This document shows, piece after piece, positions 3,059 through 33,094 of a stretch of DNA of 33,417 nt. A program made the position numbers and the translations under genes. The notes under the pieces are model-generated. The model ran no database searches. It was not told the DNA's origin and worked only from the letters and a program-made list of their open reading frames with translations. How positions within the stretch are numbered: the stretch's first letter is position 1; each line of letters begins with the position of its first letter. The stretch comes from Prevotella sp. (GTDB taxonomy: Bacteria; Bacteroidota; Bacteroidia; Bacteroidales; Bacteroidaceae): contig JAFZAP010000005.1 of NCBI GenBank assembly GCA_017557185.1, positions 1 to 33,417 on the forward strand, read 5' to 3'.

Positions 3059-4333
3059 ATGCGAATCCTGATTGTTAACACAAGTGAGCTGACGGGTGGG
3101 GCGGCGGTAGCTGCGAACCGCCTGAAAGATGCTCTGAACAACAACGGCGAGAAGGCGAAGATGCTGGTGGGCGACAAGGTCACCGACGACATCACGGTGG
3201 TAGGCCTGAAGCAGTCGTGGCGAAAACGCTGGCACTTCCTCTGGGAGCGCTGGGTGGTGTTCTGGCGCCTGCATCTGACGAAGCACAATCTGTTTGCCAT
3301 CGACATCGCCAATGCCGGCACCGACATCACGCGGCTGCCGGAGTTCAAGGAGGCCGACGTCGTGAACCTGCACTGGGTGAACCAAGGCATGCTGTCGCTG
3401 GGAAACATCCGGAAGATTCTGGATTCCGGCAAGCCGGTGGTGTGGACGATGCACGACATGTGGCCTGCCGCCGCCATCTGCCACCTGACGCTGGGCTGCC
3501 AGTACTACAAGACGCAGTGTCGCCGCTGCAAGTACCTGCCGGGTCACGGGTCGGACAACGACCTAGCGGTGAGCGTGTGGCAGAAGAAGAAGGCGATGCT
3601 GAACGGCCGCCACGTGTGGTTCGTGGCTTGCAGCAGGTGGCTGGCAGGCGAGGCGAAGCAGAGTGCGCTACTGAAGGGTCAGAGCATCACCCATATTCCG
3701 AACCCCATCGATACGCGTGTGTTCTGCAGGAAGGACAAGGCGGAGGCCCGCCAGCGGCTCGGACTGCCGGAGGAGAAGCGGCTGCTGCTGTTTGTGTCGC
3801 AGCGTGTGGACAACGAGAACAAGGGCATGCAGTATCTCGTGGAGGCCTGCCAGAAGCTCACGGCGCAGTATCCCGAGATGGCCGAGGACACCGGTATCGT
3901 CGTGCTGGGCGGTCACGCCGAGGAGATAGAAGGTCAGCTGCCTTGGCCCACCTATGCGCTGGGCTATGTCGCCGACACCCATCGCATCGTGGATGTTTAT
4001 AATGCCGCCGATGTGTTTGTGCTGCCGTCGCTATCGGAGAACCTGCCGAATACCATCATGGAGGCGATGGCGTGCGGTGTGCCGAGCATCGGCTTCAACG
4101 TGGGGGGCATCCCCGAGGAGATTGACCACCGCCAGAACGGCTATGTGGCGAAGTATCGCGACGCCGACGACCTGGCGGCAGGCATTCGGTGGGTGCTCTG
4201 CGATGCCGACCGCGAGGCGCTGTCGCGTCAGGCGGTGCGCAAGGTGGTGACCAGCTATTCGCAGCAGAGCGTGGCGCTGCGCTACACGGAAGTTTACTAT
4301 GAGGCACTGGCCTCCAAGCAATTCAGACTATGA
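3059..4333 (+). CDS. Glycosyltransferase family 4 protein
   Basis: This 424-aa GT-B fold transferase is cytoplasmic and probably adds a sugar from a nucleotide donor to a surface polysaccharide or lipid-linked glycan. The N-terminal domain starts MRILIVNTSELTGGAAVAAN, the acceptor-side loop typical of WcaC-like enzymes. C141, C147, C154 and C157 form a cysteine cluster often seen in this subfamily. The C-terminal donor domain shows HIPNPID (212-218), LFVSQRVDNENKG (244-256) and the E-x7-E motif in SENLPNTIMEAMACG (E327 and E335). ATG 3059 is preferred over the in-frame GTG at 3053, which lies in the word repeat. The gene overlaps the next by ATGA, so the two are probably translationally coupled. 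Confidence 0.9.
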   Translation: MRILIVNTSELTGGAAVAANRLKDALNNNGEKAKMLVGDKVTDDITVVGLKQSWRKRWHFLWERWVVFWRLHLTKHNLFAIDIANAGTDITRLPEFKEADVVNLHWVNQGMLSLGNIRKILDSGKPVVWTMHDMWPAAAICHLTLGCQYYKTQCRRCKYLPGHGSDNDLAVSVWQKKKAMLNGRHVWFVACSRWLAGEAKQSALLKGQSITHIPNPIDTRVFCRKDKAEARQRLGLPEEKRLLLFVSQRVDNENKGMQYLVEACQKLTAQYPEMAEDTGIVVLGGHAEEIEGQLPWPTYALGYVADTHRIVDVYNAADVFVLPSLSENLPNTIMEAMACGVPSIGFNVGGIPEEIDHRQNGYVAKYRDADDLAAGIRWVLCDADREALSRQAVRKVVTSYSQQSVALRYTEVYYEALASKQFRL

Positions 4334-5145
4334 TACGGTTTTCAATCATCACCTGCACCTACAATGCCGCGAAGGAGGTGGGGCGCACCCTCGACAGCGT
4401 GCTCGCACAGACCTACCACCACGTGGAGCATCTCGTCATCGACGGGGCGTCGAAGGATGCCACGATGCAGCTGGTGCGTGACTACCAGAAGGAATCGGAA
4501 GAGGCCGACAACGACCACGAACTGGTCGTGGTGTCGGAACCCGACAGCGGTCTCTACGATGCGATGAACAAAGGCATCGGTCTGGCTACGGGCGACTACC
4601 TCGTGTTCCTGAATGCGGGCGATGTGTTCCCGTCGGCCGACACGCTGGAGCTCGTAGCGGGTGCGGTGGGCGACGGCGAGGCGCTGCCGGGCGTGCTCTA
4701 CGGCGATACCGACATCGTCGACGACACGGGCCGCTTCCTGCGTCACCGACGTCTGCAGCCTCCTGCCGAAGGGCTGTCGTGGCGGTCGTTCCGGCACGGT
4801 ATGCTGGTGTGCCATCAGGCATTCTATGCGCGTGCCGACCTGGCGAAGCGCAACCTGTATGACCTGAGCTATCGCTATAGTGCCGATGTGGACTGGTGTA
4901 TCCGCGTGATGAAGGATGCGGAGGGTGAGAGCACGAAGCCACAGGAGCCCTCGTTGGCTCCCGCGCCGCTCTCCACGAAGTATGTGGGGATGGTGGTGGT
5001 GAACTACCTCGACGGCGGTCTCACCACGAAGAACCATCGCCGTTCGCTGCGCGAGCGTTTCCGGGTGATGCGCCACCACTATGGTCTGCCCGTCACCCTC
5101 TGGATGCATTTCACGTTCCTGTTCCGAGCCCTTTTGAAAAAATAG
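4330..5145 (+). CDS. Glycosyltransferase family 2 protein (WcaE-like)
   Basis: This 271-aa GT-A fold enzyme has the expected MIRFSIITCTYNAAKEVGRT start, QTYHHVEHLVIDGASKD (27-43), the YDAMNKGIGLATGDYL segment (76-91) and the metal-binding NAGD (95-98). Such proteins transfer one sugar during surface polysaccharide synthesis. The donor and acceptor cannot be read from sequence. The start is fixed by the ATGA overlap with the GT4 gene. The segment at about 197-215 (GES to PLST) is Pro/Ser-rich and could be an inserted linker. No flippase, polymerase or sugar-nucleotide gene lies nearby, so this is a small glycosyltransferase pair rather than a full capsule locus. Confidence 0.88.
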   Translation: MIRFSIITCTYNAAKEVGRTLDSVLAQTYHHVEHLVIDGASKDATMQLVRDYQKESEEADNDHELVVVSEPDSGLYDAMNKGIGLATGDYLVFLNAGDVFPSADTLELVAGAVGDGEALPGVLYGDTDIVDDTGRFLRHRRLQPPAEGLSWRSFRHGMLVCHQAFYARADLAKRNLYDLSYRYSADVDWCIRVMKDAEGESTKPQEPSLAPAPLSTKYVGMVVVNYLDGGLTTKNHRRSLRERFRVMRHHYGLPVTLWMHFTFLFRALLKK

Positions 5146-5159
5146 GAGCCTACCCCCCG

Positions 5160-5265
5160 CCTGCCCCTCCGTCGCGAATGGGGATTCGCTCCCCTTTGTG
5201 GGGCCGCAGCCACACCGGTGGCTGCTCTAAAGACCCCAGTCGCCCTAAAGGGAGGGGAGAGGACG
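5160..5265. repeat. Multi-hairpin GC-rich intergenic repeat
   Basis: Several inverted repeats follow one another: GCGAAT/ATTCGC (5174-5189), CCCC/GGGG (5191-5203), GCAGCCAC/GTGGCTGC (5206-5225) and CCCTAAAGGG, ending in GGGAGGGGAGAGG (about 5251-5263). The last part resembles the GGGAGGGG palindromes found inside the GH43 gene. It could also act as a terminator for the glycosyltransferase genes, but no U-run follows. Confidence 0.55.
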
Positions 5266-20737: not shown

Positions 20738-20792
20738 CTATCAACTGTCAACTATCAACTCTCAACTACTTGGAGGGCCGGGGTGGGGCTTC
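20738..20792 (-). repeat. CAACTATCAACT word repeat plus GC-rich repeat
   Basis: The words AACTATC, AACTGTC, AACTATC, AACTCTC, AACTA run from 20739 to 20767. The GC-rich GGAGGGCCGGGGTGGGGCTT follows at 20771-20790, a member of the GGAGGGG-type repeats. Together they fill the spacer between nadK and the ABC exporter gene. Confidence 0.6.
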
Positions 20793-21713
20793 CTACCTCG
20801 CATCCAACCCCCACATCATCTTCTCGCGCAGCGTGGCGAAGTAGTGCTGCGAGGCACGCTTCACGATGCGCACCGTGTGGGGAGCCTTACGGATGACGAG
20901 CTGTATGCGATCGTCGAGCGATGCCGACCGCCCGTCGACAGCCACGAGGTAGTTGTGTGTACGGCTCTCAACGGTAAGATCTATCACGCTGTCGTCGTTG
21001 ATGACGATGGGACGGATGTTGAGCGAGTGGGGGGCAACGGGCGTCAGACAAAGAATGCCCGTCAGCGGAGCCATAATCGGACCGCCGTTCGAAAGGTTGT
21101 AAGCCGTTGAACCTGTCGGCGTCGAAACAACGAGTCCGTCGGCCTGGTAGGTCACGAGGTCATTGCCGTTGATGCGGGCGTGGATGGTGATCATCGAGGC
21201 ATTGTCGCGCTTCAGCACGGCGATATCGTTCAAAGCGTAGGGATAGCCCTTTCTCCGCTCTTCTCTCCGCTCTCCGCGTTCCACTTCCTCAATCCCTATC
21301 ACGGCATGCTCCTCTACGATGCAGGTACCGTTATAGATTTCGTCGAAGGCTTCGTCGATGTCGGCAGGCAGGAAGTCAGCCAGGAAACCCAGCCGCCCTG
21401 TGTTCACGCCGATGATGGGAATACCCGAGTTGCCCACGTGGCTGGCGGTCTTCAACAACGTTCCGTCACCGCCCATCGAGATGGCGTAGTCGGCAGGGAA
21501 GTCGAGCTTGTCGAACACGCGCACGCCCTCCCAGAGTTCACTCTCCACTCTCCTCTCACCATTCTCCTCTCTTTTCAGGAAGTCGTAGAATGTGCGCTCC
21601 ACGAACACTTCTGCCCCGCGTCTGTGCAGACAGCTGAGTAGCAGCGCCATTGAGGCCGATTTCTTCGTTTGGTATTCGTTGCCGAAAACGGCAAATCTGA
21701 GTTTCTGATCCAT
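20793..21713 (-). CDS. nadK: NAD kinase
   Basis: This 306-aa cytoplasmic enzyme phosphorylates NAD to NADP using ATP or polyphosphate. GGDGTLLKTA (81-90) is the catalytic GGDG motif, NTGRLGFLADF (104-114) follows, and TPTGSTAYNLSNGGPI (198-213) is the NAD-binding signature. Residues 48-64 and 143-155 are highly charged and are encoded by G/A-rich word repeats not expected in the family. They account for the slight excess over the usual length of about 290 aa. The start at 21713 suits a promoter at 21775-21745 and a 27-nt leader. It is first in a minus-strand run of seven genes. Confidence 0.95.
   Translation of the reverse strand: MDQKLRFAVFGNEYQTKKSASMALLLSCLHRRGAEVFVERTFYDFLKREENGERRVESELWEGVRVFDKLDFPADYAISMGGDGTLLKTASHVGNSGIPIIGVNTGRLGFLADFLPADIDEAFDEIYNGTCIVEEHAVIGIEEVERGERREERRKGYPYALNDIAVLKRDNASMITIHARINGNDLVTYQADGLVVSTPTGSTAYNLSNGGPIMAPLTGILCLTPVAPHSLNIRPIVINDDSVIDLTVESRTHNYLVAVDGRSASLDDRIQLVIRKAPHTVRIVKRASQHYFATLREKMMWGLDAR
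21246..21290 (-). repeat. In-frame GGAGAGCGGAGAG word repeat in nadK
   Basis: On the coding strand the words GGAGAGC, GGAGAGAA, GAGCGGAGA encode EVERGERREERRK (143-155) just before the conserved LNDIAVL segment. This is the second of two such stretches in the gene. Confidence 0.6.
21524..21572 (-). repeat. In-frame GAGAGGAGAATGG word repeat in nadK
   Basis: On the coding strand GAGAGGAGAATGG, TGAGAGGAGAG and TGGAGAGTGAA encode residues of the form REENGERRVESE (48-59). The words are very like those in the sialidase-like gene (GGAGAATGGAGAAT), so the same repeat family probably entered both genes. Confidence 0.6.
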
Positions 21714-21775: not shown

Positions 21776-21935
21776 GAAATTCCCAATATTTTACTGGCTA
21801 TTTGTCGAAAGCGTCATTCAAGGCACATAAAGGGCCTTCCTCTTTTCGGGGGCACAGCTATCGATTGACTGGAGCATTGCCTTCATGTGTCAGTTGCAAT
21901 GCTTTCGTGTGGCGATCATATTGACCTAGTTTTGC

Positions 21936-22067
21936 AAATCAACTTATTTTAATCAGTAAATTAACTTAATTTGATCAGTAAATTAACTTATTTTACTCAG
22001 CAAATTAACTTATTTTACTTGGTAAATTAACTTAATTTACCGAACAAATTAACTTAATTTACTTTTC
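21936..22067. repeat. Six 22-bp direct repeats, each a near-palindrome
   Basis: Units begin at 21936, 21958, 21980, 22002, 22024 and 22046, exactly 22 bp apart. Each starts with AAATTAACTTAWTTT (AAATC in unit 1) and ends with six or seven variable bases. AAATTAACTTAATTT is a perfect odd palindrome about the central C, kept fully in units 2, 5 and 6. The 22-bp period is about two helical turns and would place palindromes on one face of the DNA. The flanks contain GGAGCATTG (21871) and its reverse complement (22073), and an 18-bp inverted pair with 16 matches (21896-21913 and 22127-22144). Confidence 0.85.
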
Positions 22068-23563: not shown

Positions 23564-25683
23564 ACATCCTCGATCAAGACATCAAGTACTTGCCCGGTAT
23601 GGGTCCGCGGCGCACCGAGATTCTACAGAAGGAGCTCGGCATCGATACGTGGGGCCAGCTGCTGGAGTACTATCCTTACAAATATGTCGACCGCAGTCGC
23701 GTATATCGAAGCGATGAGTTGCAGGCCGACATGCCGTTTGTGCAGCTGAAAGGCAAGATACTGTCGTTCGAGGAGTTCAGTCAGGGAGCGCGCAAGAAGC
23801 GCATCGTAGCACACTTCACCGATGGTTACGGCGTCGTCGACCTCGTTTGGTTCAACGGTACGAAGTATGTCTACAAGCAATACAAGGTGGGCGTAGAGTA
23901 TGTGGTATTCGGCAAGCCGGGCATCTATAACGGGCGATTCCAGTTCTCGCATCCCGACATCGACCCTGCCGATGAACTCGTGTTGTCGGAGATGGGTATG
24001 CAGCCCTACTACATGACCACCGAGAAGATGAAGAGCTGCGGGCTGCAGAGTCGCGGAATGGAGAAGATCATCAAGGCGTTGCTGGAGCGCATCAGCCTCT
24101 CCTCGGGTAGCGATGTGGTGAAAGGAGTTATCGCGGAGACGCTGCCGCCCTTCATCACCGGCCGGCTGCATCTCTGTTCGCGCGATGAGGCCCTGCGCTG
24201 GATACACTATCCGCAGACACCCGACGAGATGCAGCGTGCCCGTGTTCGCCTGAAGTTCGAAGAACTGTTCTATGTGCAGCTGAACATCCTGCGCTATGCC
24301 AGCGACCAGCGCCGCAAGTATCGGGGCAATGTGTTTCCGCATGTGGGTGCCATTTTCAATTCCTTCTACCACGAGCACCTGCCCTTCGAACTCACGGGAG
24401 CACAGAAGCGCGTGATGCACGAGATACGTGCCGACATGCGGTCGGGACGGCAGATGAACCGCCTGTTGCAGGGTGATGTGGGCTCGGGGAAGACACTTGT
24501 CGCGCTGATGTCGATGCTCATCGCACTCGACAACGGCTTCCAGGCTTGCATGATGGCACCGACGGAGATTCTTGCCGAGCAGCACCTGCAGACCATCCGC
24601 GAGTTCCTGGGTACGATGCCCGTCCGCGTGGAACTGCTCACGGGTGTCGTGAAGGGCAAGAAGCGCACGGAGATTCTTCGCTCGCTCCACGACGGTTCGA
24701 TACAAATCGTTGTGGGCACTCATGCGTTGATAGAAGATACGGTGCAGTTCCACAAGCTCGGGTTGGCGGTGATCGACGAGCAGCATCGCTTCGGCGTGGC
24801 ACAGCGCGCGAAGCTCTGGGCAAAGAGCGAGAACCCGCCACACGTGCTGGTGATGACGGCGACGCCCATCCCGCGTACGCTGGCGATGACCATCTACGGC
24901 GACCTCGACGTGAGCGTCATCGACGAACTCCCGCCAGGTCGCAAGCCCATACAGACCATACATAAGTTTGATAACCAGCAGACATCGCTCTATCACGGCA
25001 TTCGCCAGCAGATAGCGCTCGGCCGTCAGGTGTATATCGTGTTCCCGCTCATTAAGGAAAGCGAGAAGATGGACCTGCAGAACCTCGAGGAAGGCTTCGA
25101 GGCGCTGCGCATTGCCTTCCCCGAATTTCAGTTGAGCAAGGTGCACGGCAAGATGAAGCCTGCCGAGAAGGAGGCTGAGATGCAACGCTTCGTGAATGGC
25201 GAGACGCAGATTCTCGTTGCTACGACGGTGATCGAGGTTGGTGTGAACGTGCCGAATGCATCGGTGATGGTCATCCTCGAGGCACAGCGCTTCGGCTTGT
25301 CGCAGCTGCACCAGTTGCGAGGGCGTGTGGGACGCGGTGCCGACCAAAGCTATTGCATCCTCGTCACCAGCTACAAGCTCTCGGCGGAGACGCGGAAGCG
25401 CATCGACATCATGTGCGAAACCAACGACGGCTTCGAGATTGCCGAGGCCGACTTGAAGTTGCGAGGTCCTGGCGATTTGGAGGGAACACAGCAGAGTGGC
25501 ACGGCCTTCGACTTGAAGATTGCCGACATTGCCCGCGACGGACAGCTCGTACAGCTCGCCCGCGATGAGGCACAGCACATCATCGATGACGATCCCACCT
25601 GTCAGAGCCCCCTGTATCGGCTGCTCTGGAACCGCCTGCGCCAGCTCCGCAAAAGCCATATCAACTGGGCTGCCATTTCATGA
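23560..25683 (+). CDS. recG: ATP-dependent DNA helicase RecG
   Basis: This 707-aa helicase remodels stalled forks and branched recombination intermediates. The N-terminal wedge/OB region covers about 1-270. Helicase motif I is GDVGSGKT (305-312), motif II is DEQH (406-409) in the RecG-typical [10 protein letters not shown], motif III is [11 protein letters not shown], and motif VI is in LRGRVGRG. The C-terminal [14 protein letters not shown] is also RecG-specific. The length is close to the usual 690 aa. The start is fixed by the ATGA overlap with ispD. Confidence 0.97.
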
Positions 25684-25785
25684 AGAAGAACAACCTTCAA
25701 TTCATAAAATACTAAAAAAACATGCACATTTATACAATAGAACATACTAAAAAATAATAAAAACCGTTAAACAATAGGGTGTATC

Positions 25786-25817
25786 TTTGATACTTATGGT
25801 ATTTTTTTGTACCTTTG
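25786..25817 (+). promoter_or_regulatory. Promoter of the M23/LysM peptidase gene
   Basis: TTTG 25786-25789, 20 nt, then TACCTTTG 25810-25817. The upstream element is itself part of another TATCTTTG (25782-25789). Start near 25822, giving an unusually long leader of about 125 nt. Confidence 0.7.
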
Positions 25818-25821
25818 CCCC

Positions 25822-25946
25822 GTATTTTTGCTTCTTTAAGCGAAGAATTAGTGTCTGCTATTGGGTTTTTGTAGTGCTCAATGGGGTTTATCGGACACAG
25901 GTATTTGAGTTCCTTCGTGTGAAGGACGAACCTAAAACAAGTGAAT
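25822..25946 (+). promoter_or_regulatory. Long structured 5' leader of the M23/LysM gene
   Basis: Two helices are visible. GTGTCTG 25851-25857 pairs with CGGACAC 25892-25898, with one G-U. TCCTTC 25911-25916 pairs with GAAGGA 25921-25926 across GTGT, ending about 20 nt before the start codon. No known riboswitch class was recognised. A control role is inferred from the length, since other leaders here are 0-45 nt. Confidence 0.35.
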
Positions 25947-26921
25947 ATGGATTTTAAGAAAATAGTAAAGACTTTAGCACTCACAGCGTTTTTCACTCTT
26001 TGTGGCGGACATGTCGCCGCTCAGGATCTCCTGGCTAGCCAGGCTCCGGTCGACAAGAAGATGAAAACCGTCGATACGCTCACATTCAATCAACTTCTGG
26101 AACGCGAATACTCCGGCCTGCCCGCAGAGGAACTCTATGCCGACTGGAACAACGTGTATGCACATCGTGCCACGCAGCTGCCCGATCAGTACAGGATCGA
26201 CCTGCGTGATTTCAGCATGCCTACTCCCAGCCGCGTGATCACCTCGAACTTCGGTCCTCGTTGGGGACGCCAGCATAAGGGTCTTGATATCAAGGTTTAT
26301 ACCGGCGATACCATTCGCGCAGCCTTCTCAGGCATGGTGCGCATGGTGAAATTCGAAGCAAAGGGCTATGGTAAGTATATCGTGATCCGTCACGACAACG
26401 GCTTGGAGACCATCTATGGTCACCTCTCGAAGCAGCTCGTCAAGGAGAACCAAGTGGTGAAGGCTGGCGATGTCATCGGCCTCGGTGGCTCGACAGGCCG
26501 CTCTAATGGTTCGCACCTGCACTTCGAGACGCGTCTCTGCGGTGTGGCTCTGAACCCTGCCCTGATGTTCGACTTCCGTGCTCAGGATGTGACGGGCGAT
26601 TTCTATGTCTATCGCAAGAAGTCTTATGAGCGCGAGGCTGCTGAGGCTACCCGCCTGCGTGGTGTGCAGGGCAATGGTAGCTACAATCCTGCCGACGTGC
26701 ACTCTACCGCTGTGGCACAGAATAGCAGCAATGGCAGCAGCGAGCGTAAGCAGACTACCTACGCTTCATCGGCTAGTCGCAAGGTGCATAAGGTGAAGAG
26801 CGGCGAGACCCTCTACCGCATCGCTACGAAGTATGGTGTGAGCGTAGAGCAGTTGCGCAAGCTCAACGGACTGAAGAAGGACTCCAGCATCCGTCCGGGC
26901 CAGCTCATCCGTTACTCTTAA
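25947..26921 (+). CDS. Exported M23 peptidase with C-terminal LysM domain
   Basis: This 324-aa cell-wall endopeptidase or divisome-type factor has a signal peptide (1-26, ending HVAAQ). Its LytM/M23 domain spans about 95-205 with zinc ligands H110 and D114 (in HKGLDIK) and H192 in HLHFE, plus H159 in YGHLS and H190. All catalytic residues are present, so it should be active on peptidoglycan cross-links. A single LysM domain (about 280-324, VKSGETLYRIATKYGV) binds peptidoglycan. The linker between them is Ser/Asn-rich. ATG 25947 is preferred; GTG 25941 is an in-frame alternative. Confidence 0.93.
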   Translation: MDFKKIVKTLALTAFFTLCGGHVAAQDLLASQAPVDKKMKTVDTLTFNQLLEREYSGLPAEELYADWNNVYAHRATQLPDQYRIDLRDFSMPTPSRVITSNFGPRWGRQHKGLDIKVYTGDTIRAAFSGMVRMVKFEAKGYGKYIVIRHDNGLETIYGHLSKQLVKENQVVKAGDVIGLGGSTGRSNGSHLHFETRLCGVALNPALMFDFRAQDVTGDFYVYRKKSYEREAAEATRLRGVQGNGSYNPADVHSTAVAQNSSNGSSERKQTTYASSASRKVHKVKSGETLYRIATKYGVSVEQLRKLNGLKKDSSIRPGQLIRYS

Positions 26922-26948
26922 TGAATTATTTTCGGAACAACGAATAAG

Positions 26949-26980
26949 AAGGGGTTGCACTGCGGTGCAATCCCTTTGTT
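26949..26980 (+). terminator. Intrinsic terminator after the M23/LysM gene
   Basis: A 12-bp stem (26949-26960 with 26965-26976, one G-T pair) with a 4-nt loop TGCG is followed by TTTGTT. It lies 28 bp past the stop codon. Confidence 0.75.
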
Positions 26981-27020
26981 GTAGGGAACTATATAGGCGA
27001 TGAAATGGCAGAGCACAAAG

Positions 27021-27264
27021 GCGGCCTGTAAGGCCAGCGAGCTATCAGCCCAGGGCATCGCCCTGGGAAGTATGGCATAAGAGGAACTGCGCCCTACAGG
27101 GGCAACGGACGGAGCAGCGAGGGCCATCGTGCTTGCACGTTTGGCCGAGTCGTGACGGACGAAGGCGAAGCCAAAAGCTTTTGCACTTACAGCGCGAAAA
27201 GTCCTTCGAACATACAAAACCCAGGGCGTTGCCCTGGGCTATTTGCTTATTGGCCTTCAGGCCG
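27021..27264. repeat. REPIN-like inverted pair of GC-rich palindromic modules
   Basis: The left arm (27021-27067) and right arm (27220-27264) are inverted copies of one module: CCCAGGGCGWTGCCCTGGGC, an AT-richer spacer, then a GGCCTT..AGGCC hairpin. The 150 bp between them contain further hairpins, among them GGCCA 27122-27126 with TGGCC 27142-27146, enclosing CGTGC/GCACG, and GCCC-TACA-GGGC near 27091-27102. No gene lies in 26922-27339. Such paired repeats are typically moved by RAYT transposases; none is in this window. Confidence 0.65.
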
Positions 27265-27339
27265 TTTTATGAAACCATATTCCTACGTCATCTCCAATAT
27301 CATAGCCTTGTCGTATGGCTGCGGGACCACAATGGCGTC

Positions 27340-30300
27340 TTACTGCTTGTCCGAGCGTTGATAAATGGCGAAGTGGTCGAAGGAGGCAGAGGCTTCGTTG
27401 TCGGTGTAGGTGACTTGGAAGAGGCCCACCTTCACCTTTTCAGGCATGCGCATCTCCACGGGCGAGCCAGTGGTCTCAGTCCATTGCTGACCGTCGGCGC
27501 TGGTGCGGATGATGAACGTGTTGCCCTGTCGCTCAATCATCAGCCACGGGTCATATTGCCAGCTGTTGCCGCGCGGGAACTGCGGGCGACGACCGTGATG
27601 CGAAACGGTGGTGAGCATATTGCCACAGTTGTAGTTGGGGAAGATACCCATCTGCACAATCTGCTGGTTCTGCGGGTCGGTGTCGTCAAGCACCATCAGT
27701 CCACCCTCGTTGTAGCTGGGTGTGCGACGATGCTCGCTTCCCGTCAGATCGCTGAGATGACAGATGGCAACGAAGTCGCCCGTGATCATTTCGTACTTCA
27801 TCGGACCGTTCTGCGCAGCGAAGGCATTGAAGTTGCGGCCTTTGGAAGTGAGGGTGAGCCTCTCCCCCGACCCCTCCCCCATAGGGAGGGGAGAAAGGAT
27901 ATTAAAGTCGGAGTTTTTGGTAGAGATGGTTTTTGAGGCTATCTTCTTGCTGTCTTTCTCCCCAAGGTTCGCCATTGCGGTAATGGTGTATTTGCCTGGC
28001 TTGGGTAAGGAAAGAAGGCCCACCCCCTCCCCCTCCCGTAGAGGGAGGGGAGTAGATAGTTTTGTTCCTATCACGCTGACCTTGTTGAAGCCGGGCTGGA
28101 TGATGTTACCTGCTTTGTCGACAAGGCGTACGCTGAGCAGCTGTGGTGTAAGGGCGGCTACTTCTATACGGGCTCCCTTCAGCTCCTGTTGCGCAGCCTT
28201 GGCTTGCAGCTTCTCTGCAGCTGCAAGGTCGTAGTCGAGAGGTGCCTCATAGTGGGCTTTCACCTCGTCGGCAGAAATTGTTCTATCGTAGATGGCGAGT
28301 GCGTGCAGATAGCCGTTGAAGGGGGAGTTACCCTCGAAGGAAGCACCAATCTGGATATAGCCGCGTGGTCGCAGAACGAGCATCATGTTTTTCTCCGACA
28401 CCTGCCGACCGTTCAGGTAGTGGCGTTCCATATAGCCGTCATAAGTGACCACCCAGTGTTGCCACTCGCCTTCGTGCTGCTTGATGAGTGGCGAGCCGCT
28501 GTTCTCGAATGTTGCATTGTGCATCATCAGTCCGTTTTGCGGATCACTGCCGTTACAAAGCTCCACGGTGGAAAGATCGTGGCGGTCTGGGATGAGTTGT
28601 ACGATGCACTCGTTGCGGTCGACACTGGGATTCAGCACCCATGCTTCAATGCTATAGGGAGCGCTGTAGTTCATGCAGTCGGGTAAGGGACGATCACTGC
28701 GGAAGGGCCCACCCCTAGCCCCTCCCAAAAGGGAGGGGGAATTACTGCCAGTGAAATGGAAGGCTGGACGACCGTCGCGCAGTTCAATTGATAGGGCATT
28801 ACCCTTGAAGACGTATTCATTACTCACGAGTTCTGTGACCTGCGTCCCAACGGGATAGTCCTTGGCGTTCAAGTTGATGATAGGTGCCGAAGAGCCCTTG
28901 CAGCCAGGAGCTCCGCCGGCGATATCGGCATGACGCTCCTTCCAGGCAGAAGACTCTCCCCTCCCTTTGGGGGAGGGGTCGGGGGAGAGGCTTTTGAGGA
29001 CTTTCACATTCCAAATCCCCCCGAAGTGACCGTTCATCTCGCGACCGGTCACCCAAATGCGCAGATAGCGGGCTGAGGTGAGGCCCGTGTCGATCATCGG
29101 GGAACCTGGCTGGGTGTTGTTGGTGTGGTCGGCATAGAGCGTCCACTGCTGTCCGTCGCGAGACGTTTCTATTTTGTATTGGTAATAGAACGTTGCAAAC
29201 TCGAACTGTGTTTGCACCTCCGAGAAAGACTTCACGTCACCCAAATCGATTTCCAGGTAATCCTCTCCATTACAGGTGGCAGGTCGCCAAAGGGTGGCGT
29301 TGTTGTCGTCGGTGGCATATTGCGGGCGATAGTCGTCGCTGTAGTAGCTCGAGGCCGTAGTCGCAGCTCCGAAGGCGAGATTCTCCCTTGTGGGAAGATC
29401 GCGAACCGAGCGCGGTAACACGCCGTCGTGGGTGGGCTTGACCTTTTCAATCTTGCCATCAGGGGTGAAGTGCAGTTCGTCGATACAAATCTGGCGATTG
29501 AAGCCGTGGGTGGCCTGCGGGATGTTATGGCGGTGATACACGATGTAGTATTCGTCGCCGTCCTGCAGGATGCTATGGTGACCAGGACCGTGGACAGTCT
29601 GGTCTTCGTTGGTTTCAAGGATGCAGCCCTGATACTCATACGGACCCATAGGCCCCACCGTGCTTGTGGCATATTGCACACGATAGGTGTGATCGTGGCA
29701 CGAGCCGGAGGAATAGGTGAAATAGTAGATGCCATTGCGCTTCAGCACAAACGGTGCCTCGAAGAAGTCCTTGATCTCGGTATTCAGGATGAGCTTCTTG
29801 TCGGCAAACGACTTCATGTCGGGATTGAACTTTGCTACACCGCAGCCGAAGCCGTCGTAGATGCCCCACGTGCCGAAATAGATGTAGATCTGGCCGTCGT
29901 CGTCGACGAAGGTCTGGCCGTCAAGGGTGATGGCGTTATGAACAAAGCGGTCCTCGACGAGCACGGCGTCATCGCTGCCCAACACGTTCTTCCACGGGCC
30001 GAGAGGCGTTGGCCCCACGCCTTCGTGCAACACACACGGCTCACAGTAGAAGTAGCGATAGAGGCCGTCGGCGGTCTGCATCACGTCAGGTGCCCACACA
30101 ACTTCTGTCGTCGGCCAGTCCATGATATGATTCGTCCAAGTGCGAAAGTCCTTCGACGTCCACACCTGAGCCGGTCCGTAGCCGTTGCCCGTGCCGTCGG
30201 TGGTGGCATATAAATAATAGGTGTCGCCAAACTTGCGGATGGTGGGATCGGCGAAATAGCCGGGGATAAACGGATTGCCCGCACCGGGGGTGTTCCATTG

Positions 30301-30396
30301 GGCTGGCTGCTGGGGCTGCTGGTCGGGCTGCGATACTATCGCAGCATTCAGAACAGCAGGAATGGCTGCGAGAAGCAAAAGAAGGACTTTCTTCAT
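27340..30396 (-). CDS. Multidomain GH43 glycosidase with inserted repeat peptides
   Basis: This 1018-aa exported protein starts with a signal peptide (1-19). The GH43 five-bladed propeller (about 40-330) carries D50 (FADP), D104 (WAPD) and E213 (EAPF) as the base, pKa modulator and acid of the family. A discoidin-like (F5/8C) module follows at about 338-467, a LamG/concanavalin-like module at about 505-720, a small helical/Ig-like stretch at about 720-825, and a beta-xylosidase C-terminal-type module at about 855-1014. GH43 enzymes cleave arabinose- or xylose-containing glycans. Four in-frame peptides (near 469-481, 553-565, 781-794 and 834-847) are encoded by GC-rich palindromic repeats and fall at module borders or surface loops. 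The reading frame stays open. Confidence 0.9.
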   Translation of the reverse strand: MKKVLLLLLAAIPAVLNAAIVSQPDQQPQQPAQWNTPGAGNPFIPGYFADPTIRKFGDTYYLYATTDGTGNGYGPAQVWTSKDFRTWTNHIMDWPTTEVVWAPDVMQTADGLYRYFYCEPCVLHEGVGPTPLGPWKNVLGSDDAVLVEDRFVHNAITLDGQTFVDDDGQIYIYFGTWGIYDGFGCGVAKFNPDMKSFADKKLILNTEIKDFFEAPFVLKRNGIYYFTYSSGSCHDHTYRVQYATSTVGPMGPYEYQGCILETNEDQTVHGPGHHSILQDGDEYYIVYHRHNIPQATHGFNRQICIDELHFTPDGKIEKVKPTHDGVLPRSVRDLPTRENLAFGAATTASSYYSDDYRPQYATDDNNATLWRPATCNGEDYLEIDLGDVKSFSEVQTQFEFATFYYQYKIETSRDGQQWTLYADHTNNTQPGSPMIDTGLTSARYLRIWVTGREMNGHFGGIWNVKVLKSLSPDPSPKGRGESSAWKERHADIAGGAPGCKGSSAPIINLNAKDYPVGTQVTELVSNEYVFKGNALSIELRDGRPAFHFTGSNSPSLLGGARGGPFRSDRPLPDCMNYSAPYSIEAWVLNPSVDRNECIVQLIPDRHDLSTVELCNGSDPQNGLMMHNATFENSGSPLIKQHEGEWQHWVVTYDGYMERHYLNGRQVSEKNMMLVLRPRGYIQIGASFEGNSPFNGYLHALAIYDRTISADEVKAHYEAPLDYDLAAAEKLQAKAAQQELKGARIEVAALTPQLLSVRLVDKAGNIIQPGFNKVSVIGTKLSTPLPLREGEGVGLLSLPKPGKYTITAMANLGEKDSKKIASKTISTKNSDFNILSPLPMGEGSGERLTLTSKGRNFNAFAAQNGPMKYEMITGDFVAICHLSDLTGSEHRRTPSYNEGGLMVLDDTDPQNQQIVQMGIFPNYNCGNMLTTVSHHGRRPQFPRGNSWQYDPWLMIERQGNTFIIRTSADGQQWTETTGSPVEMRMPEKVKVGLFQVTYTDNEASASFDHFAIYQRSDKQ
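27859..27895 (-). repeat. In-frame palindromic repeat 4 in the GH43 gene
   Basis: CCCCTCCCCCATAGGGAGGGG forms a palindrome around CATA; its centre is within 27871-27892. It encodes LSPLPMGEGSGERL (834-847) between the Ig-like stretch and the C-terminal module. Confidence 0.8.
28021..28052 (-). repeat. In-frame palindromic repeat 3 in the GH43 gene
   Basis: CCCCTCCCGTAGAGGGAGGGG-type palindrome encoding STPLPLREGEGVGL (781-794) inside an Ig-like region, between strands VSVIGTK and KPGKYTITAMA. Confidence 0.8.
28704..28741 (-). repeat. In-frame palindromic repeat 2 in the GH43 gene
   Basis: CCCCTCCC-AAAA-GGGAGGGG core with a flanking GGGCCCACCCCTAG arm. It encodes SPSLLGGARGGPF (553-565) within the LamG-like module. 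Confidence 0.8.
28954..28990 (-). repeat. In-frame palindromic repeat 1 in the GH43 gene
   Basis: CTCTCCCCTCCC-TTT-GGGGGAGGGG core, followed by TCGGGGGAGAGG. It encodes LSPDPSPKGRGES (470-482) at the border of the discoidin-like module and the LamG-like module. Confidence 0.8.
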
Positions 30397-30397
30397 A

Positions 30398-30447
30398 TAC
30401 GGATTGACGATTTACGGATTTACTGATTTACGATTTACGGATTTCTT
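30398..30447. repeat. GATTTACG word repeat upstream of the GH43 gene
   Basis: The words GGATTGAC, GATTTACG, GATTTACT, GATTTAC, GATTTACG, GATTTC run next to the GH43 start codon. The same words return at 30482-30498. No TAnnTTTG promoter is evident in the spacer. Confidence 0.65.
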
Positions 30448-30480
30448 TCTCCATTTTATTACGAAAGCGGCAGAGCCGAG
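30445..30480 (-). repeat. Dispersed 36-nt repeat, copy 2
   Basis: This is the inverted counterpart of 1475-1510, 32 of 36 bases the same. The cloverleaf element that follows copy 1 is absent here; word repeats follow instead. Confidence 0.6.
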
Positions 30481-30506
30481 TCCGATTTACGATTTTACCT
30501 TGTTGA

Positions 30507-30597
30507 CTTTTCCCTTTATGCCCTTTCACTCCCCTTTATGCCCTTTAAGCCCTATCACTCCCCTTTATGCCCTTTAAGCCCTTTATGCCCTTTTATC
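30507..30597. repeat. CCCTTTATGCC word repeat
   Basis: Eight or so degenerate words (CCCTTTATGC, CCCTTTCACTC, CCCTTTAAGC, CCTATCACTC) run from 30507 into the end of the M1 aminopeptidase gene. Together with the preceding repeats they account for almost the whole 196-bp spacer. Confidence 0.7.
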
Positions 30598-33094
30598 TTG
30601 TCAAATAGTAGGCATTCTCTTTCAGTTTATTCATCAGAGCCGGCGAGAGGGTAGGGTGACTGGTGATCCAGCTTTTCACGATGCCTTTTGCCTCCTCGCT
30701 CTTGTGTCCGCTGATCAGTGACGAGAGCCAGTAGCCCGGGAAGAAAATATCTCCTGTGCGCTGGACATCCTCAAGGGCATCGAGACCGGGGGCGAGATAG
30801 CGGTTGCTGAAAGGTTCACGCGTGGGGTCGTTGAGCAAAGCGAGCAGCGACCGTGCCCAGGGTTCGACACGTCGGTTCTCAGCCTTCAGCAAATCGTTGA
30901 AGAGCTGCTGCTGAGCCTGTTCGTCGGGATTACATGCCTGCGAGATATAATCGAACTCCGCGCGCTCATCGTCGGTTTTCAGCCTACTGCGCTGCGTGGT
31001 GAGAATCTGCTGCCATTCCGCAGGGCGCATGATGGCCAGATGATAGGCCATGTGCGTGTAGTCGCGTTCGTCGAGCAGGTCGCTTCCCTTGGTCTGCCAA
31101 AGCGTGTAGATGTTGTCGAGGATGCTCTTCGAGGTAGCGGATGTGGAGAGCATACGCAGCAGTTGCTGTCGTACGCTGGTGAGCGAGTGCTGTTGCGCGT
31201 GGTTGTAGAGGGTGTACTCCGCGAAGCTTCGTTCGTCGGGTGTCACGTCTTTCAGTATTCGTGCGAGATAGTTGCAGATGGTTGTGGAAACGAGCGGGTT
31301 TTCCTCCTGCGCGAGATAGGTGATGAGGGTGCCTAGCATCCATGCTGCTGTGGTGTTGCCCATCAGGTAGTTCTCATAGAGCGTCATCAGTGCTGCCTGC
31401 CGATGCAGGGCATTGGGCTCGGTCTGACAGGTGAAGCCGAGGAAGAGCAGCGTGTTGTCATCGCAGACGAAACGTCCGTAGCCCAGACCGTCGAGGTTGG
31501 GAATGACCAGCGGCTGACGGCGCGAGTCGGTGGCGACGGCCACTGCCGGCACGGTCACCTGTGGTGCTGCCGAGAACACGCTCACCTCATCGGTGCGGAA
31601 CCCCTGCTGCTGTCGGCTGTCGCTGATGACCACACCCAGCGCGAAGTCCTGCTTCCAGACGAGTCGCCGATGATAGGGATCCTGCTGGCTGACGATGATA
31701 CTGCCGTCCTGTTGCCGTTCGCAAGTGACGGTGGGCAGTCCTTTCTCTTGCACCCACACATCACTAAAGGCCTTGGCGCTGTGTTCAGGGGCGAATTCGT
31801 CGAGCACACTCACCAGGTCGTCCCACGTCGCATTGCCGAAGGCATATTTGTTCAGATAGGCCCGCAAGCCGTCACGCAGAGCCTTTTCGCCCTTGATAAG
31901 TTCCAGCTGTCGCATCATGATTGGTGCCTTGTGGTAGATGATGTTACCATAGAGCAGGCCCGCCCCGTTCAGGTTGTCGAGCGGCTGCTGGATGGGATGT
32001 GTGCCTTCGGTGCGGTCGGTGGCGAGGGCGGAAGGATAGTGGTTGCGCAGGAACAGCAGGTCGTGGTTGATGTCGGGGAACTGCTCGCGCGAGATCTTAT
32101 CGGCCATGAAGTTGGCAAAGACCTCCTTCGTCCATACATCGTCGAACCACTTCATCGTGACAAGGTCGCCGAACCACATGTGTGCAGTCTCGTGAGCGAT
32201 GAGGTTCAGGCGTGTCAACTCCTCGTCGGGCGTGGGATTCTGTCCGAGGAATATCTCACGGTCGGTAAACTGTATGCAGCCCGGATGCTCCATACCGCCA
32301 AACTGATAGCCCAGCAAGACGACAAAGCTGTATTTCTCGAACGGATAGCGGATGTTCGTGTAACGCTCCATCCAGGTCAGCGACAGCGCCACCTGGTCGA
32401 ACACCTTCGACAGCTGTGCCACCTTCTTCGGATCGGTTTCGCGATAGAGGGCCGTCAGTTCGCGTCCGTCGCGTGTGGCCTTCTGCACCTGGAACTTCCC
32501 TGCGGTGAAGGAGAACAGATACGTCGGGATGGGCTTCTGTGTCTGGTTCGAGATGCTCACCCAGCCATCGGGCAGGTTCAGCTTCAGTGCGAACTGTGCC
32601 TTCAGGTCGGGTTGGTCGAAACAGGGGAACACCGAACGCGCATGATCGGGCACGAAGAGCGTGTAGAGATACTCGTCGGAGCGGTTCAGCGCCTTGTCGC
32701 CACTTTGTCCCATCACTTCGATGATGTTCTCGCCCTCGCGCAGATAGCGTTTCGGAATGATAATGTGTTCATCGCGCAACACCGTCTTCACACCCTTTCC
32801 GTTCACGCCGATGACCTTCTCCAACTGCTCCGGCGAACCTTGGAAGTCCAGTTGCAGGTCCTCGCTGCCACTCCATGTGAAGCGCAGGATCTCCATGAAG
32901 GTCACGGCTTCCTCCTTGCGTTCCGGAACGGTGAACGTCAGCGAATAATGGATTTCACTTACATGTGCGGCACGCTCGGTGGCCAGTGCCCGCGAAACAC
33001 CTTTCTCGATGGCTGCCGCAGAGGCGGTGGCACTTGCCATCCACGACATCGCTGCAACCAGCGAAAAGAGAATACATACAGATAATCGTTTCAT
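30593..33094 (-). CDS. M1 family aminopeptidase
   Basis: This 833-aa zinc aminopeptidase has a signal peptide (about 1-26, MKRLSVCILFSLVAAMSWMA) and probably acts in the periplasm to trim peptides. The order is an N-terminal beta domain, a thermolysin-like catalytic domain with GGMEH (266-270, in place of the usual GAMEN exopeptidase motif), HETAH (301-305) and the third zinc ligand E324 in WTKEVFA, then a helical ERAP1_C-like C-terminal domain (about 520-833). The HExxH-x18-E spacing is exact. ATG 33094 is chosen, since the in-frame ATG 33109 lies upstream of the -7 box. Confidence 0.93.
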   Translation of the reverse strand: MKRLSVCILFSLVAAMSWMASATASAAAIEKGVSRALATERAAHVSEIHYSLTFTVPERKEEAVTFMEILRFTWSGSEDLQLDFQGSPEQLEKVIGVNGKGVKTVLRDEHIIIPKRYLREGENIIEVMGQSGDKALNRSDEYLYTLFVPDHARSVFPCFDQPDLKAQFALKLNLPDGWVSISNQTQKPIPTYLFSFTAGKFQVQKATRDGRELTALYRETDPKKVAQLSKVFDQVALSLTWMERYTNIRYPFEKYSFVVLLGYQFGGMEHPGCIQFTDREIFLGQNPTPDEELTRLNLIAHETAHMWFGDLVTMKWFDDVWTKEVFANFMADKISREQFPDINHDLLFLRNHYPSALATDRTEGTHPIQQPLDNLNGAGLLYGNIIYHKAPIMMRQLELIKGEKALRDGLRAYLNKYAFGNATWDDLVSVLDEFAPEHSAKAFSDVWVQEKGLPTVTCERQQDGSIIVSQQDPYHRRLVWKQDFALGVVISDSRQQQGFRTDEVSVFSAAPQVTVPAVAVATDSRRQPLVIPNLDGLGYGRFVCDDNTLLFLGFTCQTEPNALHRQAALMTLYENYLMGNTTAAWMLGTLITYLAQEENPLVSTTICNYLARILKDVTPDERSFAEYTLYNHAQQHSLTSVRQQLLRMLSTSATSKSILDNIYTLWQTKGSDLLDERDYTHMAYHLAIMRPAEWQQILTTQRSRLKTDDERAEFDYISQACNPDEQAQQQLFNDLLKAENRRVEPWARSLLALLNDPTREPFSNRYLAPGLDALEDVQRTGDIFFPGYWLSSLISGHKSEEAKGIVKSWITSHPTLSPALMNKLKENAYYLTR

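Follow-up and report, generated by a model that had tools for sequence, protein, structure and literature searches.

How four palindromic repeats can reside in a single protein-coding gene while its reading frame stays open is the question raised by a 33,417-nt stretch of a Prevotella genome (here called the window). A preliminary description of this stretch read the frame-preserving invasion of one GH43 gene as the sign of a repeat that is tuned to be translatable, by analogy with the Rickettsia palindromic elements (RPE). Alternatively, such a repeat might insert without regard to the frame and be filtered by selection afterwards.

The GH43 gene and its four repeat copies

The host gene is located on the minus strand (27340..30396). 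According to its open reading frame (ORF) and Pfam matches, it encodes a 1018-aa protein that combines GH43 (envelope at residues 40-315), F5/8 type C (346-461), laminin-G-like (578-713) and DUF1349 (857-1011) domains. The nearest named relatives of the gene belong to Prevotella or Prevotellaceae MAGs, and the source genome comprises 3.35 Mb in 116 contigs and is 89% complete. All four palindromes were recovered where they had been described, within this single open frame, and all of them represent a short form of the repeat. Copy 1 (28955..28992, minus strand; peptide SLSPDPSPKGRGES) occupies the linker between the F5/8C and laminin-G-like domains. The remaining three lie on the plus strand, so that the gene reads the opposite strand: copy 2 (28706..28741) as NSPSLLGGARGGP, copy 3 (28016..28051) as TPLPLREGEGVGL and copy 4 (27857..27894), found in a variable linker before DUF1349, as LSPLPMGEGSGERL. 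Over 38 nt, copies 1 and 4 are complementary to 97%. When three or fewer mismatches are allowed, the pattern CCCTCCCNNNGGGAGGG has eight matches in the window, five of them within the four GH43 copies, compared with a mean of 1.55 and a maximum of five in 100 shuffles. An alignment of 13 copies was converted into a hairpin covariance model termed R1, which recognizes the four GH43 copies with E values of 1e-11 to 3e-10, a match that follows by construction from their presence among the 13. An Rfam search over 25000-31500 gave no match at the gathering score, and no RNA structure beyond a plain hairpin was detected in the four copies, whose z-scores of -1.3, -2.8, -1.3 and -1.3 are mostly those that C/G-rich letters would give. 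Two further repeats are present in the window. An inverted pair downstream of the GH43 gene (27030-27067 / 27220-27257) carries a CCCAGGGC-N-GCCCTGGG hairpin, is 82% complementary over 38 nt and represents another, possibly dispersed palindrome, and 22-bp AT-rich repeats are arranged head to tail around AAATTAACTTATTTTACTCAG at 21912-22063.

In the protein, the repeats span approximately residues 469-482, 552-564, 782-794 and 834-847, all of them outside the Pfam envelopes. In an AlphaFold model with a mean pLDDT of 71.5 (22 sequences), each of the four peptides coincides with or adjoins coil of low confidence, the pLDDT being below 50 at residues 477-479, 552-562 and 839-843 and averaging 53 over the block 781-790. 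Low values in this model are not confined to the repeats and are also predicted elsewhere, mainly in the laminin-G-like and DUF1349 regions. The earlier view that all copies lie at module borders is borne out for the GH43 gene, where they are situated between domains, but not genome-wide, where approximately 21 of 41 in-gene copies lie inside a Pfam domain (envelopes read by hand).

It had also been proposed that each palindrome adds about 13 residues. In a comparison with orthologues at the DNA level, copy 2 is the sole clean net insertion (33 nt). At site 1, the linker is equally long in an orthologue of 88% identity, which indicates that copy 1 replaced sequence rather than adding to it. 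Site 3 combines insertion with replacement and, like site 4, is situated in a variable stretch.

Reading frames across the repeat family

The short form, approximately 36 nt long, consists of a C-rich tail (AGCCCCACCCC) followed by a CCCTCCC-loop-GGGAGGG hairpin, and the unit can be written as AGCCCCACCCC...GGGAGGGG. At least 142 R1 copies exist in the genome at E values up to 1, of which 141 fall below 4e-4; the number is a lower bound, as 150 of 1340 candidates were scored. A degenerate hairpin pattern found 11 sites, compared with none for the same pattern read backwards. The profile of the 142 copies starts sharply at AGCC, fades after the 3' G-run and exhibits next to no conservation beyond, and the commonest core length is 36 nt (65/142). 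The short form is a hairpin in the range of 20-40 nt with many dispersed copies. Close or tandem neighbours are occasional and include three copies arranged head to tail (C72:5271-5391). The repeat is present in 79 of 120 congeneric genomes, and beyond the genus it is scattered, with 12 positive genomes, including the source genome, among 149 from the order. Exact matches to the short-form pattern were also observed in two IMG/VR contigs (L335-L337), one of which is 109 kb long and carries two copies. At another locus (L006, ~2619-2665), an AT-rich repeat (TTTACGATTTAC...) adjoins a palindrome copy and looks like a different small insert, apparently within the same coding region.

Two spacer copies had been described in addition to those in the GH43 gene. 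The one at 20771-20790 is a weak, degenerate short copy (20749..20793, minus strand, E 7e-4) located at the stop codon of an NAD kinase-like ORF (20793-21713, minus strand; named by eye). The other, at 5251-5263, turned out to be the right end of a longer element of approximately 115 nt (5146..5262, plus strand) directly 3' of the stop codon of a glycosyltransferase-like ORF (4330-5145; also named by eye). This long form has the same ends as the short form and an inner stretch of approximately 80 nt with a structured middle, and it may be either the parent of the short form or a short form that received an insert. A profile of six long copies identified 18 copies of at least 80 nt in 357 kb of sequence from the source genome. 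In a further 996 kb of loci, about 10% of them again from the source genome, all matches were in loci of the source genome. Five of the 18 near-full long copies are in frame with coding-like flanks. They are distributed over four ORFs. One of these, for a PGA_cap protein, holds two copies, the next two encode a DegT-type aminotransferase and a citrate lyase ligase/CitG protein, and the fourth is an ORF on contig C7 that runs off the stretch.

For the genome-wide analysis of in-gene copies, up to 1.5 kb was fetched on each side of every match outside the window, and the flanks were classed by codon usage and open frame with a custom script (codon log-odds, 150-nt flanks, ORFs of at least 120 aa, many of them cut by the ends of the stretches). 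Of the 142 copies, 41 are embedded in an uninterrupted frame and belong to 34 ORFs. Coding sequence was assigned to a single flank for 36 copies, to both flanks but on opposite strands for two and to neither flank for 63. At random places, the script called 62% in-gene and hence misses genes, so that some copies with one, opposite-strand or no coding flank may be genic. Within the thresholds of this script, whose misses may hide some, frame-shifted and stop-broken in-gene copies were both absent (0/142 each). All 34 host ORFs have a Pfam match. They include CAZymes (GH2, GH35, GH38, GH43, GH92 and GH130) as well as topoisomerase I, MnmA, an RsmD-like methyltransferase, Ham1, the exonuclease VII large subunit (XseA), epimerases, a protein with UvrB-interaction and CarD domains (Mfd-like) and a radical SAM/TRAM protein. 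The GH43 gene carries four copies, two ORFs (in L110 and L106) carry three each and the other 31 carry one each. Housekeeping proteins in which the insert lies inside a domain are MnmA, Ham1, XseA and the RsmD-like protein. Net inserts at clean sites amount to 39 nt in the GH35 gene, 39 nt in an epimerase gene and 45 nt in the MnmA gene, next to the 33 nt at site 2 of the GH43 gene. The in-gene copies are not more decayed than those outside (median R1 score 46.3 vs 40.9, p 0.04).

Do these figures call for a repeat adapted to translation, i.e., one that is stop-free in the right frames, has a length that is a multiple of three and can therefore live inside genes? The copies have on average 4.94 of six frames open, 109 of 142 have five or six, the commonest core length is divisible by three and at least 41 copies reside in genes, all of which would be expected of such a repeat. 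Yet letter shuffles of the same copies average 4.80 open frames, against 4.27 in random genomic 45-mers. Five or six open frames occur in 65% of the shuffles, so that the real copies are in slight excess, and all six are open in 42 of 142 copies compared with 28% of shuffles, which is no excess. As the copies are related, they count as one consensus rather than as 142 trials. The share of matches with a length divisible by three is alike in genes (20/41) and outside (31/63; Fisher p 1.0). No single frame or conserved peptide is used either, since the in-gene copies fall into all six classes of frame and orientation (11/3/1 in the same and 6/10/10 in the opposite orientation), and the long form is open in two to five frames only. 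With openness near that of shuffles, all frame classes in use and no difference in length between genic and other copies, the proposal of a repeat tuned to be translatable is not supported, and adaptation to translation is considered very unlikely.

A simulation of insertion gave an estimate of the role of selection. Real copies pasted at random places kept the frame in 26% of cases, shifted it in 30% and introduced a stop in 7%; 23% were one-sided and 14% non-coding. The stretches used had been chosen around copies and possibly contain fewer genes than the genome at large. With the 63 non-coding copies as the yardstick, approximately 120 in-frame and 170 broken insertions would be expected, compared with the 41 and 0 observed; selection thus appears to have eliminated the broken insertions together with some two thirds of those in frame. 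Consequently, random insertion combined with purifying selection suffices to explain in-frame palindromes with intact host frames, and no special design of the repeat is needed.

Taken together, the palindromes are probably copies of a small mobile repeat of two forms that lands widely, with frame-breaking copies purged and tolerated in-frame copies persisting nearly neutrally until they decay. In this model, the four GH43 palindromes would derive from a non-autonomous element that occurs as a form of approximately 36 nt and one of approximately 115 nt with the same ends. Insertions that break the frame or bring in a stop codon would be removed by selection, as their lack suggests. In-frame insertions located in linkers or in loops that tolerate them would survive as mostly neutral peptides rich in Pro, Ser, Gly and Arg, 11-15 residues long (approximately 40 for the long form), and would decay later. 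Such a repeat would require no fitting to translation; its G+C richness leaves most frames open.

Presence and absence in orthologous genes

The alignment of GH43 orthologues comprises 24 rows, which correspond to 16 distinct genes because eight genes apparently occur twice, as L156-L163 and as L184-L191. Fifteen of the 16 clearly lack all four peptides. At sites 1-3, the repeat peptides are found in 0 of the 16, and at site 4 the sixteenth (L159, equal to L187) exhibits a look-alike, SPTLGEGPGAG, that is not recognized by R1 at E 0.1; it may reflect chance or the decay of a copy. Distant homologues with the same peptides at the same places, which would mark the peptides as ancestral protein sequence, are thus not seen among the 16 apart from this single look-alike. 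Searching 39 GH43 loci with R1 revealed in-frame copies at other places in three distinct orthologues, with the peptides TLPFREGQGVG (L158), TPLPSKGRGRGG (L127) and APPYREGTGEG (L179). A further match in L178 is weak and not alike, and two in L182 lie outside the ORF. The L127 ORF (genome G022) additionally contains the segments FNSSILQSFNS and HSSLLSPL, which look like in-frame inserts of another, AT-richer repeat family.

Similar patterns were found for other host genes. The MnmA-type protein carries a 15-aa insert (peptides such as SPTPNPSPVGRG) in an otherwise conserved stretch and Ham1 carries one in a variable loop; each is missing from 29 of 29 orthologues, namely the best 29 loci from 96 (MnmA) and 82 (Ham1) genomes with matches. 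In genome G063, for which 17 of the 34 host genes were queried and those in L047 and L111 gave no row, the peptide is absent from all 15 host genes found. In the closer genome G340, the peptide is shared in the helicase and acetyltransferase genes and possibly in the topoisomerase I gene, and it is decayed in the GH130 gene. Several other host genes of G340 contain a different filler of their own in the same loop, so that length variation in some loops also has other causes. In the ADH gene (L125), the repeat again replaces a segment of about equal length. Judging from presence and absence between species, copies have landed at many places. The loop of the RsmD-like methyltransferase that harbours the palindrome (L071:1264-1908; L331) was observed to hold approximately 60 extra residues in the G340 orthologue, with a different tandem peptide (AALPAAQQPYTAEGPYT...), and neither feature in G063; this loop may be a hotspot at which more than one kind of repeat enters in frame.

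These comparisons also bear on a functional explanation, according to which the Pro/Ser/Gly-rich spacers are selected as flexible linkers in exported enzymes. Their composition is similar to that of known linkers, all four GH43 sites lie between domains and several hosts are glycoside hydrolases. Most orthologues nonetheless lack the peptides, which moreover differ with the frame in which the repeat is read, and in several housekeeping hosts (MnmA, Ham1, XseA and the RsmD-like protein) the insert lies inside a domain. Selection for a linker function is considered extremely improbable.

One observation is not predicted by simple descent and neutral decay: in the helicase gene, the copies in two species are identical (36/36 nt) though their flanks differ. 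A more far-reaching reading would be that a two-form selfish repeat of Prevotella-type gut bacteria re-enters the same tolerant enzyme loops, is kept identical by re-insertion or homogenisation, is moved by an enzyme of an as yet undescribed kind and steadily supplies free-living bacteria with new protein loops. This reading is tentative and on balance rather doubtful.

Movement of the repeat and comparison with known systems

According to the model of a mobile repeat filtered by selection, a trans-acting factor would copy the repeat, leaving no target-site duplication and at times deleting sequence at the site of insertion. Flanking matches of at least 5 nt occur at 13 of 142 copies, compared with approximately 10.7 expected from re-paired flanks, so that target-site duplications are not in excess and insertion is evident from the comparison between species only, not from a terminal scar.

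Two alternatives concern the moving step alone and overlap with the preferred explanation in all other respects. The first holds that the copies are canonical REP elements moved by a RAYT, i.e., a Y1 tyrosine transposase. The size, the hairpin, the occasional close or tandem neighbours and the lack of target duplication are in agreement with this, and the source genome has three Y1-family (PF01797) hits. One of these Y1/RAYT-like genes (L005 1240-1870), however, lies between two mutually inverted hairpins of the GTAGGGGCAGACCCCCGTGTCTGCCC type, which differ from the R1 repeat and apparently constitute a GTAG REP of its own. The profile of the 142 copies shows the AGCCCCACCCC tail and no GTAG or CGTC tag at the hairpin foot, with GTAG occurring in the loop only. 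Among 33 Y1 loci (three from the source genome and 30 of the other matches), none has R1 at both ends and three have any R1 match, two of them weak; at the one from the source genome, the repeat is about 1 kb away. On the assumption that both surveys drew the same 120 congeneric genomes, the presence of the repeat is not significantly associated with that of Y1 (50/29/23/18, p 0.55), a Y1 hit being found in 73 of them. Genomes with at least ten copies lean towards a Y1 hit (28/39, odds ratio 2.0, p 0.11), but 11 of the 39 lack one. The PF01797 search identified no mobilising enzyme for the repeat, and movement by a RAYT is regarded as distinctly unlikely.

In the second alternative, the repeat would spread without transposition, as GC-rich hairpins recombine with one another or cause template switching while the DNA is replicated. 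It would account for the lack of target duplication, the replacements at two sites (GH43 site 1 and the ADH gene), the head-to-tail triplet and the copy in the helicase gene that two species share letter for letter although its flanks have diverged. It is contradicted by sites at which a single complete unit was cleanly inserted and by the sharp 5' edge over 142 copies, and this route, too, is judged unlikely.

If the repeat is indeed mobile and filtered by selection, a large lineage of gut bacteria, in which hundreds of species have been sequenced, bears a load of in-frame palindromes like that of RPE, and the dense Prevotella tree allows presence and absence, decay and effects on the protein to be followed. 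The copies would provide natural insertion-scanning data for the loops of conserved enzymes. They also serve as a warning that such peptides in database proteins can be inserts of mobile elements rather than features of a family.

Among the titles and abstract openings listed from the open-access literature, no description of this repeat family in Prevotella was found, and the following comparisons refer to related systems as far as the cited descriptions extend. Small repeats also occur in another Bacteroidota genome, as the MITEs of Porphyromonas gingivalis (PMC4596501, PMC5771137); target-site duplication, a mark of MITEs, was not in excess of chance for the present repeat. In the same phylum, subclass 2.6 of TnpA_REP is described with hairpin repeats that have copies elsewhere in the genome (PMC6006769). 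These repeats flank the transposase gene, whereas the present one does not do so at the 33 Y1 loci. Enterobacterial RU/ERIC and Neisseria Correia elements are small, non-autonomous repeats with open frames fused to genes (PMC2759123, PMC2229807). They are described as approximately 100-170 nt long, mostly with target duplications or TA ends, in contrast to approximately 36 nt and no target duplication here. In the account given in PMC2759123, none lies inside conserved domains, whereas about half of the in-gene copies do so in the present case.

GTAG- or CGTC-tagged REP are described as single or paired hairpins of 20-40 nt. In several species they lie within ORFs, among them genes for DNA repair and tRNA modification, and an ORF may hold two; the authors of this account argue that inactivating insertions were purged (PMC3733652). 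Compared with this account, the present repeat has no tag and no association found with a RAYT, and it reaches four copies per gene. The likeness to RPE put forward in the preliminary description holds in outcome, as an invading repeat is open in frame at four sites of the GH43 gene. For R. conorii, 44 RPE integrations are described, nearly half of them in ORFs and with a conserved peptide per element (PMC10969869; see also PMC2229807; Ogata et al.). By these accounts, both are palindromes that occur outside genes and, in frame, within many conserved genes that are unrelated to one another and whose proteins tolerate them; here, 41 copies lie in 34 Pfam-matched ORFs. The described RPE are approximately 100-150 nt long (PMC2229807, PMC10969869), a range reached by the long form of approximately 115 nt but not by the 36-nt form. 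Each RPE family is reported to encode one conserved peptide, whereas the present repeat has no fixed frame or peptide, and it resides in a 3.35-Mb Prevotella genome, unlike the RPE of Rickettsia. In-frame palindromes in genes are thus already known; what differs here is the missing GTAG/CGTC tag, the lack of a detected RAYT link, the freedom of frame, the small size and the host phylum.
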